This document shows positions 2,554-8,387 of a DNA stretch of 8,387 nt, piece by piece; the stretch's first letter is position 1; every line of letters begins with the position of its first letter. Under the pieces are notes generated by a model. The model was not told the DNA's origin and did no database searches. It saw only the letters and a program-made list of their open reading frames with translations. The position numbers and the translations under genes are program-made. Source of the DNA: Thermoleophilaceae bacterium (GTDB taxonomy: Bacteria > Actinomycetota > Thermoleophilia > Solirubrobacterales > Thermoleophilaceae); NCBI GenBank assembly GCA_013696905.1, contig JACCXP010000092.1:1-8387 (forward strand), given 5' to 3'.

Positions 2554-4005
2554 ATGGAGAGCGGAGCACCGAAGAAGGACCGCTGGGCGGCGGGTGTCAC
2601 CCCGTACGCCGAGATGGGCTACTGGGACGCCGACTACGAGCCCAAGGACACCGACGTCCTGTGCGCGTTCCGAGTCACGCCCCAGGACGGCGTCGACGCC
2701 ATCGAGGCGGCGGCGGCCGTGGCGGGCGAGTCCTCGACGGCGACCTGGACGGTCGTCTGGACCGATCGGCTGACGCCGCACGAGCACTACCAGGCGAAGG
2801 CGTACTCGTGCGAGGAGGTGCCGGGGACCCCGGGGCAGTACATCGCGAAGATCGCCTACGACATCGATCTCTTCGAGGAGGGCTCCGTGGCGAACCTGAC
2901 CTCCTCGATCATCGGCAATGTCTTCGGCTTCAAGGCCCTAAAGGCGCTGCGGCTCGAGGACATGCGCATCCCGGTGTCCTACCTGCGGACGTTCCAAGGG
3001 CCGCCGCACGGGATCGTGATGGAGCGCGAGTACCTCGACAAGTTCGGACGCCCGCTGCTCGGAGCCACGACGAAGCCGAAGCTCGGGCTGTCGGCGAAGA
3101 ACTATGGGCGCGTCGTCTACGAGGCGCTGCGCGGCGGGCTCGACTTCACGAAGGACGACGAGAACATCAACTCGCAGCCCTTCATGCGCTGGCGCGACCG
3201 CTACATCCACGCGATCGAGGCCGTCAACCGCGCGTCGGCGGTCACCGGCGAGGTCAAGGGCCACTACATGAACGTCACCGCGGCGACGATGGAGGACATG
3301 TACGAGCGCGCCGAGTTCGCGAAGGAGATCGGCAGCGTCATCATCATGATGGACCTGACCGTCGGCTACACGGCGATGCAGTCGATGTCGAAGTGGGCAC
3401 GCCGAAACGGCCTGATCCTGCACCTGCATCGCGCCGGCCACGGCACCTACACGCGCCAGAAGACCCACGGCGTCAGCTTCCGCGTGATCGCGAAGTGGTG
3501 TCGGATGATCGGCGTCGACCACATCCACGCGGGCACGGTCGTCGGCAAGCTCGAGGGAGACCCGAGCATGATCAGGGGCTACTACGACGTCTGTAGGCAG
3601 CGCTTCAACAAGGCGAACCCCGAGACCGGGCTCTACTTCGACCAGGACTGGGCCTCGCTTGCGGCAGTCATGCCGGTCGCCTCCGGCGGTATCCACGCCG
3701 GTCAGATGCACCAGCTGCTGCATTACCTCGGGGAGGACGTGGTGCTCCAGTTCGGCGGCGGCACGATCGGCCACCCGATGGGGATCGCCGCCGGCGCGAC
3801 CGCCAACCGCGTGGGCGTCGAGGCGATGATCAAAGCCCGCAACGAGGGCCGGGACTACTACTCAGAGGGCCCCGACATCCTGCTTGAGGCGGCCAAGGGC
3901 TGCCCCGAGCTCGGCGCCGCGCTCGAGGTCTGGAAGGACATCACGTTCGACTTCGAGTCGACCGACACGCCCGACACGGTCGCCACACCGACGACCAGCC
4001 GCTAG
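2554..4005 (+). CDS. rbcL: RuBisCO large subunit, red-type form I (IC/IE-like)
   Basis: Carboxylates ribulose-1,5-bisphosphate to two 3-phosphoglycerates; assembles as L8S8 in the cytoplasm. The 483-residue protein keeps the key residues (spinach equivalents in brackets): E59 (60), T64/W65 (65/66), N122 (123), K174 and K176 (175/177), carbamylated K200 (201) with D202/E203, H292/R293/H296 (294/295/298), H325 (327), loop-6 K332 in TVVGKLEGD (334), S377 (379) and G401/G402 (403/404). [27 protein letters not shown] and [12 protein letters not shown] are typical of the red (form IC/ID) lineage, and cbbX in the operon agrees. It is an active-type RuBisCO, not a form IV RuBisCO-like protein. IC versus the related actinobacterial IE clade needs a tree. 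The start has an upstream GAGGAGG. Confidence 0.97.
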
Positions 4006-4032
4006 CGCGGCCAGAAAGCGGAGGAGCCACCG

Positions 4033-4575
4033 ATGAGGATCACACAGGGCACGTTCTCGTACCTCGACGACCTGACCGACGAGGAGATCGAGGCGCAGAT
4101 CAGCTATGCGATCTCGAACAACTGGGCGATCATGGTCGAGTACACCGACGATCCGCACCCCCGCAACGCCTTGTGGGACATGTGGAACGCGCCGGAGTTC
4201 GACCTCGAGCCGGGCGATGCGGACGTCGCAATGCGCGACGTCGCCGCCTGTCGCGAGGCCTACCCGAACCACTACATAAAGGTCGTCTGCTACGACAGCT
4301 CGCTCGGGCGCCAGACCTCGGCGCTGAGCTTCATCGTCAACCGCCCGAGCGAGGAGCCCGGGTTCCGCCTGGAGCGTCAGGAGAAGGCGGATCGCCAGAT
4401 TCGCTACACGCTCCAGCCCTACGCGGTCAAGGACCCGATCGGCCGCCGCTACGGGAACAAGGGCGACCTTGCCGTCACGCGCGACCCGGCGGCCGGCCAG
4501 AACGCGACGCCCGGTCGAGATTCGGCCAATGCGGGCCGCGACGGCCGATCGCCGAACGGCTCGAGCTCACCATGA
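4033..4575 (+). CDS. rbcS: RuBisCO small subunit with C-terminal extension
   Basis: Caps and stabilises the L8 core of form I RuBisCO. Residues 1-140 match form IC small subunits: [19 protein letters not shown] at the start, [11 protein letters not shown] (35-45), LWDMW (47-51), [14 protein letters not shown] (77-90), [15 protein letters not shown] (99-113) and the C-terminal hairpin [17 protein letters not shown] (124-140). Ordinary form IC subunits end about here. This one continues for about 40 residues (141-180) of Gly/Ala/Asn/Ser/Arg/Asp-rich, apparently disordered sequence. GGAGGAG (4020-4026) is 6 nt before the ATG, 27 nt after rbcL. Its stop overlaps the cbbX start (ATGA), implying translational coupling. 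The core identity is firm; the role of the tail is unknown. Confidence 0.95.
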
Positions 4576-5651
4576 GCCCACGCGGGCTCGACACGACGGG
4601 CCGGCCGCTCGATCCCGAGGCCCGGGCGGCGGCGGCTCGCGATCGCGGCTCGCCGTCGTTCGCCGACGACTTCGGCGGCACCGTCGTGCGCCCGGCAAAG
4701 GATGCACGCGCTGGGTCCGCGGTCGAGTCGATCGACTTCTCCGCCGCGGTCTCGAACGGCACGGCGGACGTGCAGGCGGTGGTGAGCGAGTCGCGCGTGC
4801 ACGAGGTGCTCGAGGAGCTCGAGCGCGACCTCGTCGGGCTCGACTCGGTGAAGCAGCACATCCGCGAGATCGCGGCCCTGCTCGTGATCGACAGGCTGCG
4901 CGGCGAGATGGGCCTCGCGACCGAGCGCCCGACGCTGCACATGAGCTTCACCGGCAGCCCCGGCACGGGCAAGACGACGGTCGCCCTGCGGATGGCCCGC
5001 ATCCTCCATCGGCTTGGCTATATCGAGCGAGGCCACCTGATCTCGGTCACCCGCGACGACCTCGTCGGCCAATACGTCGGCCACACCGCGCCGAAGACCA
5101 AGGACCTCGTCAAGCGCGCGCTCGGCGGCGTTCTGTTCATCGACGAGGCCTACTACCTCCACCGCACCGACAACGAGCGCGACTACGGCCCGGAGGCGAT
5201 CGAGGTCCTGCTCCAGGTGATGGAGTCAGAGCGCCACAACCTGGTGATCGTGATGGCCGGCTATGGCGACCGGATGGAGGAGTTCTTCCGGGCCAACCCC
5301 GGCATGGGCTCGCGCATCGCGCATCACATCGACTTCCCCGCCTACTCCCTCGACGAGCTGCTGCAGATCGCCGACCTGATGGTCGAGCGCCAGGCATACG
5401 AGCTGTCGCCGGACGCGCGAGCCGCGTTGCGCGAGTACGTCGCCCGCCGCACGCGACAGCCGAGGTTCGCGAACGGGCGCAGCATCCGCAACGCGATCGA
5501 CCGCGCACGCCTGCGCCAGGCGAGCCGACTGTTCGACTCAGAGCGCAAGCTCGACCGCCGCGACCTCGTGACGATCGAGGCCGCCGACATCCTCATGAGC
5601 AGCGTCTTCGACGAGCAGGCTGAAGCAGTTCCGAGTGGAGGAGACAACTAG
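4572..5651 (+). CDS. cbbX: Red-type RuBisCO activase CbbX (AAA+ ATPase)
   Basis: ATP-driven remodeller that pulls on the RuBisCO large subunit to release inhibitory sugar phosphates. The 359-residue protein has Walker A GSPGTGKT (128-135), a pore-loop Tyr (Y168) in [12 protein letters not shown], Walker [10 protein letters not shown] (187-195), an arginine-finger region [11 protein letters not shown] with R248, and a sensor-2-like helix [17 protein letters not shown] (300-316). The conserved domain begins near [15 protein letters not shown] (76-90), so about 75 residues precede it, versus roughly 25-30 in the R. sphaeroides-like protein as recalled. The ATG at 4572 overlaps the rbcS stop; no strong ribosome-binding site precedes it, so re-initiation is likely. 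A later GTG (4779 or 4782) would give an ordinary-length protein and cannot be excluded. Confidence 0.95.
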
Positions 5652-7700: not shown

Positions 7701-7991
7701 ATGTGCCTGGCGATACCCGGACAGGTGGTGGAGGTGGTGGACGAGGGCAACCGCCTCGCCAAGGTCGACGTGGCCGGCGTGCGGCGGACCGTCAACGTCG
7801 GGCTGCTCGACTCCGACGGCGGGAGCGGGAGCGGGGGCGCCGGCCCCGGCGACGGGGGGCTCATCCACGTCGGCTTCGCGATGGCGAAGATCGACGAGGA
7901 GGAGGCTCACGCCACGCTCGCGCTGCTCGAGCAGATGGGCGCCGAGTTCGAGCAGGAGCTCGAGGAGCTGAAAGCCAGCGTGATCGAGTGA
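7701..7991 (+). CDS. hypC: HypC, [NiFe]-hydrogenase maturation chaperone
   Basis: Small OB-fold chaperone that works with HypD to carry the Fe(CN)2CO unit and deliver it to the hydrogenase large-subunit precursor. The 96-residue protein begins MCLAIPGQVVEV; Cys2, the essential iron ligand exposed after Met removal, is present. AKVDVAGVRRTVNVGLL (20-36) and the conserved IHVGFAMAKIDEEEA (55-69) follow. Between them a Gly-rich stretch (37-53) is somewhat longer than usual. A charged C-terminal helix follows (about 66-92). AGAGGA (7689-7694) precedes the ATG. The frame is open back to 7602, but that part lacks family similarity and the Cys must be residue 2, so ATG 7701 is the start. Its stop overlaps the next gene (GTGA). 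Confidence 0.93.
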   Translation: MCLAIPGQVVEVVDEGNRLAKVDVAGVRRTVNVGLLDSDGGSGSGGAGPGDGGLIHVGFAMAKIDEEEAHATLALLEQMGAEFEQELEELKASVIE

Positions 7992-8242
7992 GCGCCGTCG
8001 AGCTGCCCCAGGCCGGCGGCTCGTGTCTGGCCGAGGAGGGCTGCATCACCTGCGGCGACACCGCGCTGCCGATGCGCGTGCTCGACGTCGACGGCGAGAG
8101 CAGGCTCGCGCTGTGCGCCGACGAGGCGGGCGCCACCGAGGAGGTCGCGATCGACCTGGTCGGTCCCCTGAGCCCGGGCGACGCCGTGCTCGTACACGCG
8201 CGCGTCGCGCTCGTGCGCCTCGAGTTCGAGGCGCTGCGATGA
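7988..8242 (+). CDS. Second HypC/HupF-like protein with CxxC motif
   Basis: An 84-residue protein starting at GTG 7988, overlapping the hypC stop by 4 bases; its own TGA overlaps the hypD ATG. The body (MRVLDVDGESRLALC at 29-43, then IDLVGPLSPGDAVLVHARVAL at 55-75) follows the HypC beta-barrel pattern, including the PGDxVLVH signature. It lacks the N-terminal Met-Cys. Instead there are C13, C19 and C22 in the order C-x5-C-I-T-C, plus C43. Similar 'CITCGD' proteins are annotated as HypC/HybG/HupF chaperones in actinobacteria (from memory). It could be a specialised partner of HypD, a chaperone for one hydrogenase, or a redox or metal-binding accessory. The start is set by the overlap; no strong ribosome-binding site is seen. 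Confidence 0.75.
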   Translation: MSAVELPQAGGSCLAEEGCITCGDTALPMRVLDVDGESRLALCADEAGATEEVAIDLVGPLSPGDAVLVHARVALVRLEFEALR

Positions 8243-8387
8243 GGTTCGTCGACGAGTTCCGCGACGCCGAGCTCGGCCAGGCGCTCGCCACCGAGATCCT
8301 CGCCACCGTCGAGCCCGGCCGCCACTACAAGGTGATGGAGGTCTGCGGCGGCCACACGCACTCGATCTACAAGTACGGGATCGACGA
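8239..8387 (+). CDS. hypD: HypD, hydrogenase maturation protein, 3' end outside window
   Basis: The first 49 codons are present and the gene runs off the window. MRFVDEFRD at the start and the motif VMEVCGGHTHSIYKYGI (32-48) are diagnostic of HypD. C36 in CGGHTH corresponds to the conserved Cys thought to hold the Fe(CN)2CO unit shared with HypC. HypD is a [4Fe-4S] protein that scaffolds cofactor assembly with HypC and HypE; its cluster cysteines would lie downstream. ATG 8239 overlaps the preceding stop, with GAGG (8228-8231) 7 nt upstream. Order hypC - hypC-like - hypD implies one co-translated unit. Confidence 0.93.
   Translation, partial: MRFVDEFRDAELGQALATEILATVEPGRHYKVMEVCGGHTHSIYKYGID

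Follow-up and report, generated by a model that had tools for sequence, protein, structure and literature searches.

A red-type RuBisCO gene cluster beside the start of a hydrogenase-maturation operon in a Thermoleophilaceae bacterium

Genes and gene order on contig C314

The window analyzed here is the entire contig C314 of a Thermoleophilaceae bacterium (G000:C314; 8,387 bp), whose genome bin (G000) comprises 2.24 Mb in 434 contigs and is 86.2% complete. The window carries a red-type RuBisCO (cbb) operon, behind which a [NiFe]-hydrogenase maturation (hyp) operon begins. All of its genes form one run on the + strand: orf1, glpX, a class I aldolase gene, cbbL, cbbS, cbbX, prk, a LysR-family gene, hypC1, hypC2 and the start of hypD (Table 1). 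Neighboring genes lie no more than 99 bp apart (prk and the LysR gene are separated by 57 bp, the LysR gene and hypC1 by 99 bp), and both the hypC1/hypC2 and the hypC2/hypD pairs overlap by 4 bp. A first-pass annotation of this DNA had described a RuBisCO/CbbX/PRK set with its regulator and, downstream in the same orientation, hypC, a gene resembling hypC and hypD; the open reading frames and the profile scores, which far exceed chance, agree with that description, and the coordinates given there are correct. The glpX and aldolase genes, which lie upstream of cbbL and outside those coordinates, are on the same strand and part of the same run. The 49-residue piece of HypD matches its family with an E-value of 1.5e-7 and scores below the full-length cut-off of 192.8 bits, as expected of a fragment.

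The gene order would allow for a single operon running from glpX to hypD. No sigma-70-like promoter and no + strand terminator-like site were found by the scan of the window, and a hairpin across the prk stop codon is no more stable than shuffled sequences (z -0.65). In relatives, the folds 3' of prk share no terminator recognizable by eye, and the stretches upstream of hypC1, also compared by eye, share no clear motif that would mark a conserved promoter.

Table 1. Features of the window, with the profile matches on which each assignment is based
Feature	Coordinates	Strand	Evidence
orf1, 146 aa, open at contig start	2..442	+	no family above Pfam cut-off
glpX, class II fructose-1,6-bisphosphatase, start codon uncertain	443..1402	+	TIGR00330 269.8 bits (cut-off 259.3)
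class I fructose-bisphosphate aldolase, start codon uncertain	1405..2454	+	NF033379 520.5 bits (cut-off 250)
cbbL, form I RuBisCO large subunit, red type	2554..4005	+	RuBisCO_large 445 bits; tree
cbbS, RuBisCO small subunit, 180 aa	4033..4575	+	PF00101 109.4 bits
cbbX, red-type RuBisCO activase	4572..5651	+	TIGR02880 464.4 bits (cut-off 459.25)
prk, phosphoribulokinase	5652..6632	+	NF005655 347.2 bits (cut-off 236)
LysR-family regulator, CbbR homologue	6690..7601	+	best model CbbR 181.4 bits, below cut-off 450
hypC1, canonical HypC chaperone, N-terminal MC	7701..7991	+	TIGR00074 68.5 bits (cut-off 48); HupF_HypC 75.7 bits (above Pfam cut-off)
hypC2, HypC-family paralogue, CITCGD motif, without N-terminal MC	7988..8242	+	PF01455 40.2 bits (cut-off 28.5); TIGR00074 29.3 bits (below 48)
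hypD, first 49 codons, cut by contig end	8239..8385	+	TIGR00075 30.6 bits; PF01924 33.8 bits

Two further observations concern the flanks of the cbb genes. Homologues of orf1 adjoin cbbR, prk or FBP in eight relatives (L001, L157, L158, L164, L165, L168, L174 and L182). A 2-phosphosulfolactate phosphatase-like gene (comB), which stands 5' of cbbL in many of the relatives read, is absent from the window at 2454-2554.

RuBisCO, regulator and Hyp proteins

The large and small subunit genes are followed downstream by cbbX, the arrangement of a red-type form I operon. In an unrooted tree of 95 CbbL proteins (with a root placed for drawing only), the window's CbbL falls inside an 18-row clade of Thermoleophilia with a Shimodaira–Hasegawa-like approximate likelihood ratio test (SH-aLRT) support of 95. 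It lies outside a 31-row clade (SH-aLRT 100) made up of 29 Pseudomonadota, one Gemmatimonadota and one Actinomycetota. A member of this mainly proteobacterial clade is Bradyrhizobium, whose enzyme we take to be form IC. The red-type RuBisCO of the first-pass annotation is upheld: the cbbX score exceeds the curated cut-off, and CbbL stands among Thermoleophilia and outside the proteobacterial clade. The backbone of the tree does not join the window's clade to other Actinomycetota and no row is labeled form IC, ID or IE, so that the tree leaves form IE unsettled. In the literature, one study names Solirubrobacterales among the bearers of form IE (PMC9561532), and another places most Actinomycetota in form IE (PMC12999727). 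Within the Thermoleophilia CbbL clade, three families (f1, f2 and f7) are intermixed, and this mixing of sequences suggests that RuBisCO has been transferred within the class. One cbbL match among the relatives (G008:C19:255684-257086) is split in two, and its second part contains an in-frame TGA.

The LysR-family protein is a CbbR homologue. In 17 relatives of the class, the cbb locus includes a homologue of it, 50-61% identical, and in 11 of these 17 the homologue is convergent to prk, unlike the window's gene, which follows prk on the + strand. In eight of these genomes (G016, G031, G050, G054, G058, G082, G100 and G271) the homologue is linked to cbb even though hyp lies on another contig; the cbb loci of G008 and G351 and some short contigs yielded no call. 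Because these homologues stay at cbb where hyp lies elsewhere, joint control of both gene sets, which the first-pass annotation had entertained for this protein, finds no support. Judging from these homologues, it is a putative cbb regulator expected to act on the cbb genes only. Matches to TNA-N7-TNA, presumably a LysR-type pattern, occur in the window at 1396 and 6687 only; they were dropped as candidate CbbR binding sites, their chance expectation not having been computed.

The two HypC-family proteins differ from each other. HypC1 has a HupF_HypC domain and the N-terminal MC of a canonical HypC, and C2 of HypC is described as essential in PMC12134894. It also has a Gly/Ser-rich insertion and reads GDGG where most aligned relatives read GDWV, either a change of the lineage or a sequence error. 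HypC2 has the domain above the Pfam cut-off, lacks the N-terminal MC and scores below the NCBIfam hypC cut-off, and it is not a canonical HypC. Its motif C[IL]TC[GSA]D is present in all 21 aligned sequences, six of which had been preselected by the string CITCG, leaving a free count of 15; a fusion of an SIS protein with HypC2 on a mycobacterial plasmid (L195:22678-23388) has CVTCSD instead. Among the loci read, the HypC2 domain stands alone at 19 and is fused to an SIS-like (phosphoheptose isomerase-like) protein at eight (L138, L139, L144, L145, L151:7482-8873, L175, L178 and L180, the SIS domain being named for L151), and one further copy is cut by a contig end. Since HypC2 is fused to SIS-like proteins in relatives, the SIS protein encoded at such loci is probably its working partner. 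In a large protein collection there are nine HypC2 homologues; one sits on a contig as long as the window, and the best is 98% identical and sits on a 524-base contig. This paralogue, fused to SIS in relatives, points to an unexplained step in hydrogenase maturation.

The start of HypD is 76-90% identical to that of standalone-HypC2 loci with group 1h hydrogenase subunits and 67-92% identical to that of standalone-HypC2 loci without structural genes on the stretch read. The values are 51-67% for two group-3-like loci and 55-67% for the SIS-fused loci. The closest relatives of the window's hyp genes, G019 and G008, belong to the same family as the window.

Linkage of cbb and hyp, hydrogenase and electron donor

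Genomes with cbbL tend to carry hypD. Among 101 genomes, hypD is found in 13 of the 14 with cbbL vs 18 of the 87 others (Fisher 2.9e-7), and within the window's own family the figures are 7/8 vs 9/23 (0.023). In a sample of 399 genomes of the class, hypD is present in 19 of 28 RuBisCO-bearing genomes vs 99 of 371 others (1.6e-5); CbbL was matched in 31 of these genomes, three weak matches (30-35% identity) being set aside as other forms, and hypD was matched in 122, of which the 118 above the cut-off were counted. Both gene sets share a contig in five of the 19 genomes that have both: the window, G026 (2.4 kb apart), G001 (18.5 kb), G103 (20 kb) and G351 (27 kb). In G001, hypF lies about 1.4 kb from a cbb-associated orf1, and in G103, hydrogenase genes stand between cbb and hyp. 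A further genome, G030, in which no cbbL was found, has the order cbbR-orf1-hypC1-hypC2-hypD. With the window left out, cbb and hyp lie within 21 kb of each other in 3 of 18 genomes, compared with 0.26 expected under uniform placement (P 0.002), and within 30 kb, G351 included, in 4 of 18 compared with 0.36 expected (P 0.0004). These P values are descriptive, as the distance was chosen after the cases had been seen, placement is taken as uniform, the genome sizes used are rounded values and the genomes share ancestry. G351 is outside the 21 kb figure because of its distance of 27 kb, and it is treated separately since its hyp end matches that of G001 at 99.6% identity over 6.6 kb. The physical linkage reported by the first-pass annotation holds in the window and recurs in a few genomes of the class and on the plasmids named below.

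Relatives with the same hyp order indicate which enzyme might follow. At the 19 standalone-HypC2 loci with the order hypC-hypC2-hypD, group 1h subunits are present at 10 (at L146 the small subunit only, before the contig end). Assignment to group 1h is based on the match to the HofG structure 5aa5 (919 bits) together with L1 and L2 motifs from PMC10080006. The large-subunit motifs of the group, TSRICGICGDNH and SFDPCLPCGVH, are present in relatives with the same hyp order. A second type of large subunit in the order has RACGVCGGVH and DPCMPCTTH and reaches 471 bits to 5aa5.

On balance, the cbb block and the start of the hyp operon probably serve one purpose, the oxidation of H2 to power CO2 fixation. 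In the mechanism proposed, CbbLS would fix CO2, with CbbX as the activase that restores RuBisCO activity; PRK would supply ribulose bisphosphate anew, and the return of carbon would fall to fructose-1,6-bisphosphatase and aldolase. Assembly of the Fe(CN)2CO group would take place on a scaffold of HypC1 and HypD. The hydrogenase genes are predicted beyond the contig end, the enzyme being most often of group 1h where it can be read in relatives, and H2 oxidation would supply the electrons for CO2 fixation. Such a scheme implies that the genome has a hydrogenase, that H2 would be the source of electrons and that selection, rather than chance, would keep the loci close. The functional coupling that the first-pass annotation had proposed is favored in part: hypD is enriched in RuBisCO-bearing relatives and the linkage recurs, and on the other side no hydrogenase was found in the bin.

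Several observations weigh against a shared purpose. In 14 of the 19 genomes with both sets, cbb and hyp are on different contigs; some of these cases (G019, G029 and G400) involve contigs shorter than 10 kb, where linkage is not excluded. Within 5 kb only G026 is linked (expected 0.07, P 0.07), and the linked arrangements differ from one another, so that linkage probably arose or was reshuffled several times. Moreover, in a broad survey a distance of more than 80 genes generally separates hydrogenase genes from those for Rubisco or Prk, with adjacency being rare (PMC7895386). It is unlikely, though to be taken seriously, that cbb and hyp became neighbors by rearrangement only, both being useful and neither co-expressed nor kept together by selection. 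The separate contigs and the differing junctions speak for such a history, as do the prk-convergent cbbR of 11 of 17 relatives, which indicates that the window's stretch has been rearranged, and the scan that found neither promoter nor terminator and left transcription undecided. Conversely, genomes linked within 21 kb exceed the number expected under uniform placement about 12-fold, and the linkage is shared by two families of the class, mycobacteria and pHCG3. A distinctly unlikely reading is that the RuBisCO and hydrogenase-maturation blocks move as one mobile hydrogen-to-carbon module among Actinomycetota, of which the window would be a landed copy, co-directional and with CbbR in between. 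What points to it are the mixed families of the CbbL tree, a mobilizable mycobacterial plasmid with cbb, hyp and hydrogenase genes, and a 6.6 kb hyp-hydrogenase stretch that is 99.6% identical between the cbb-bearing contigs G351:C40 and G001:C4 of two families (L180:17200-19900 and L181:1-3884 vs L151). This shared stretch, at a contig end, reflects either recent transfer or a chimeric contig.

The remaining contrary evidence concerns the enzyme itself. The first-pass annotation proposed to look downstream for further hyp and hydrogenase genes, and the contig ends inside hypD. In the bin, no hydrogenase large subunit was found (23 of 61 genomes matched) and no hypF (19 of 61 genomes were above the cut-off); hypD is represented only by the window's 49-codon piece, with no remainder found. 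A composite query of HypE, SIS, part of HypF, HypA, HypB and the 1h small subunit had no match in the bin either, eight candidates having been scored and no positive control being included. G026, which is 91% complete and has the tightest other linkage, likewise lacks a large subunit and a hypF above the cut-off. At the standalone-HypC2 loci, two of 19 (G035 and G064) have an enzyme that we take to be group-3-like, and seven of 19 have no structural genes on the stretch read. The class of hydrogenase, which the first-pass annotation wished to see settled, is not readable in the bin. The hyp stretch of G008 is without structural genes, and a large subunit located elsewhere in that genome has the motifs of the second type (RACGVCGGVH and DPCMPCTTH); G019 has no structural genes beside hyp on the 3 kb read. 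A genome without structural hydrogenase genes had been named beforehand as an outcome that would refute the coupling, and for the available bin this formally applies; the contig break inside hypD limits its weight. In the 1h relatives, hypE and hhySL come right after hypD, so one break at 8387 would remove all of them together.

Part of a carbon monoxide (CO) dehydrogenase locus is also present in the bin, so that H2 is not the only conceivable donor, and CO may feed the same cycle. Contig C357 (L190) encodes the C-terminal region of CoxL, scoring 476 bits across positions 479-769 of the 770-position model, together with cox accessory genes arranged as in G001; the contig ends within CoxL, and the active-site loop falls outside it. 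The CoxL of G001 has the loop AYRCSFR, which we assume to be a marker of form I CoxL, and another bin contig, C232, carries a CoxL-family gene without it. That CO rather than H2 is the donor, the hyp genes being a remnant or serving a minor hydrogenase, is quite improbable. In its favor are the CoxL part on C357, the structural hydrogenase not found in the bin, and genomes reported in PMC9561532 with RuBisCO IE and CO dehydrogenase and no high-affinity hydrogenase, one of them a Solirubrobacteraceae metagenome-assembled genome. The hyp genes argue otherwise, as hypC1, hypC2 and the start of hypD are open reading frames and hypD is enriched in cbbL genomes. Two donors can also go together: about 9 kb separate CoxL from the hypD of a 1h locus in G054 (L193, G054:C10, with L163), where CoxL has AYRCSFR, and in G031 (G031:C91, with L166), where it is above the family cut-off. 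These two CoxL-hypD-1h neighborhoods have the look of a trace-gas island. Near cox operons there are also runs of five small proteins (L192:13668-15353 and L193:902-2678), membrane-spanning by eye, that recall HylTM1-5, a set described for group 1l hydrogenases in PMC9561532.

It is very improbable indeed that the cbb-hyp junction is an assembly error joining separate parts of one genome or sequences from two genomes. The bin is fragmented, the contig ends inside hypD, the junction is known from one assembly, and the hyp end of another contig among the genomes sampled (G351:C40) has the look of a chimera or a recent transfer. Against an artifact, G030 has its own cbbR-to-hyp junction and the window's hyp genes are closest to the same-family loci G019 and G008. 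The tetranucleotide profile of the window correlates at 0.98 with two bin contigs, a weak argument as relatives' loci reach 0.96-0.98.

Comparison with known RuBisCO/hydrogenase neighborhoods

A link between hydrogenase and the Calvin cycle is described in PMC7895386. If the cbb-hyp link is functional, an actinobacterial RuBisCO would be tied to a hydrogenase by gene order, with a stronger case for H2 paying for carbon fixation; since the same source describes adjacency as rare, a family where it recurs would be a natural place to test this. No description of this contig's arrangement was found in the literature searched, a search that left most subscription papers outside its scope. Co-occurrence of RuBisCO IE with 1h hydrogenase and CO dehydrogenase is reported in PMC9561532. 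This pairing of form IE RuBisCO with a high-affinity hydrogenase, which belongs to atmospheric chemosynthesis, resembles the window in its actinobacterial RuBisCO, hydrogenase maturation genes and CO dehydrogenase; it differs in being treated as co-occurrence in genomes, with no physical linkage stated in the part of that paper available. The group 1h loci of relatives (G082, G054, G031 and G014) share the order hypC1-hypC2-hypD and a HypD start 80-90% identical to the window's. Unlike the window, they continue with hypE, hhySL, a NifU-like gene, DUF5947, DUF6084 (named in G082), a protease gene, hypB and SIS, and cbb is absent from the stretch.

Among 80 CbbL loci kept from public genomes, at least 589 of which encode a relative, hydrogenase subunits lie within 10 kb of cbb at four, all from mycobacteria (L015, L018, L020 and L032). 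The [NiFe] subunit genes there are about 4-7 kb downstream of cbbLS, and the one in L018 was typed as Huc-like. The Mycobacterium intracellulare subsp. chimaera plasmid NZ_CP012886.2 has a cbbL 79.8% identical to the window's, with cbbS and cbbX near hyp, and the genes by cbb include hypD, hypC, hypE, SIS, an SIS-HypC2 fusion, hypF and hydrogenase; there, however, hyp is convergent with cbb. In M. gordonae, hypF-hypC-hypD-hypE stand upstream of cbb and hydrogenase subunits downstream, but the large subunit, whose top hit in the PDB is 7uus at 1111 bits, is Huc-like and presumably of group 2a.

On plasmid pHCG3 of Afipia (Oligotropha) carboxidovorans, one 37 kb stretch has genes for CO dehydrogenase, then a LysR gene, a cbbX-containing cbb operon and hyp/hydrogenase genes in succession. 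In contrast to the window, its RuBisCO is 75.8% identical to the window's, its hydrogenase has a b-type cytochrome subunit, its hyp genes are on the opposite strand, its aldolase is of class II and more Calvin-cycle genes are part of its operon. Of a pHCG3-type cluster, in which cbb, hyp and structural genes share one stretch, the window has cbb and hyp, and the structural genes would lie beyond the contig end. The locus is a new instance of an already known type of RuBisCO/hydrogenase neighborhood.

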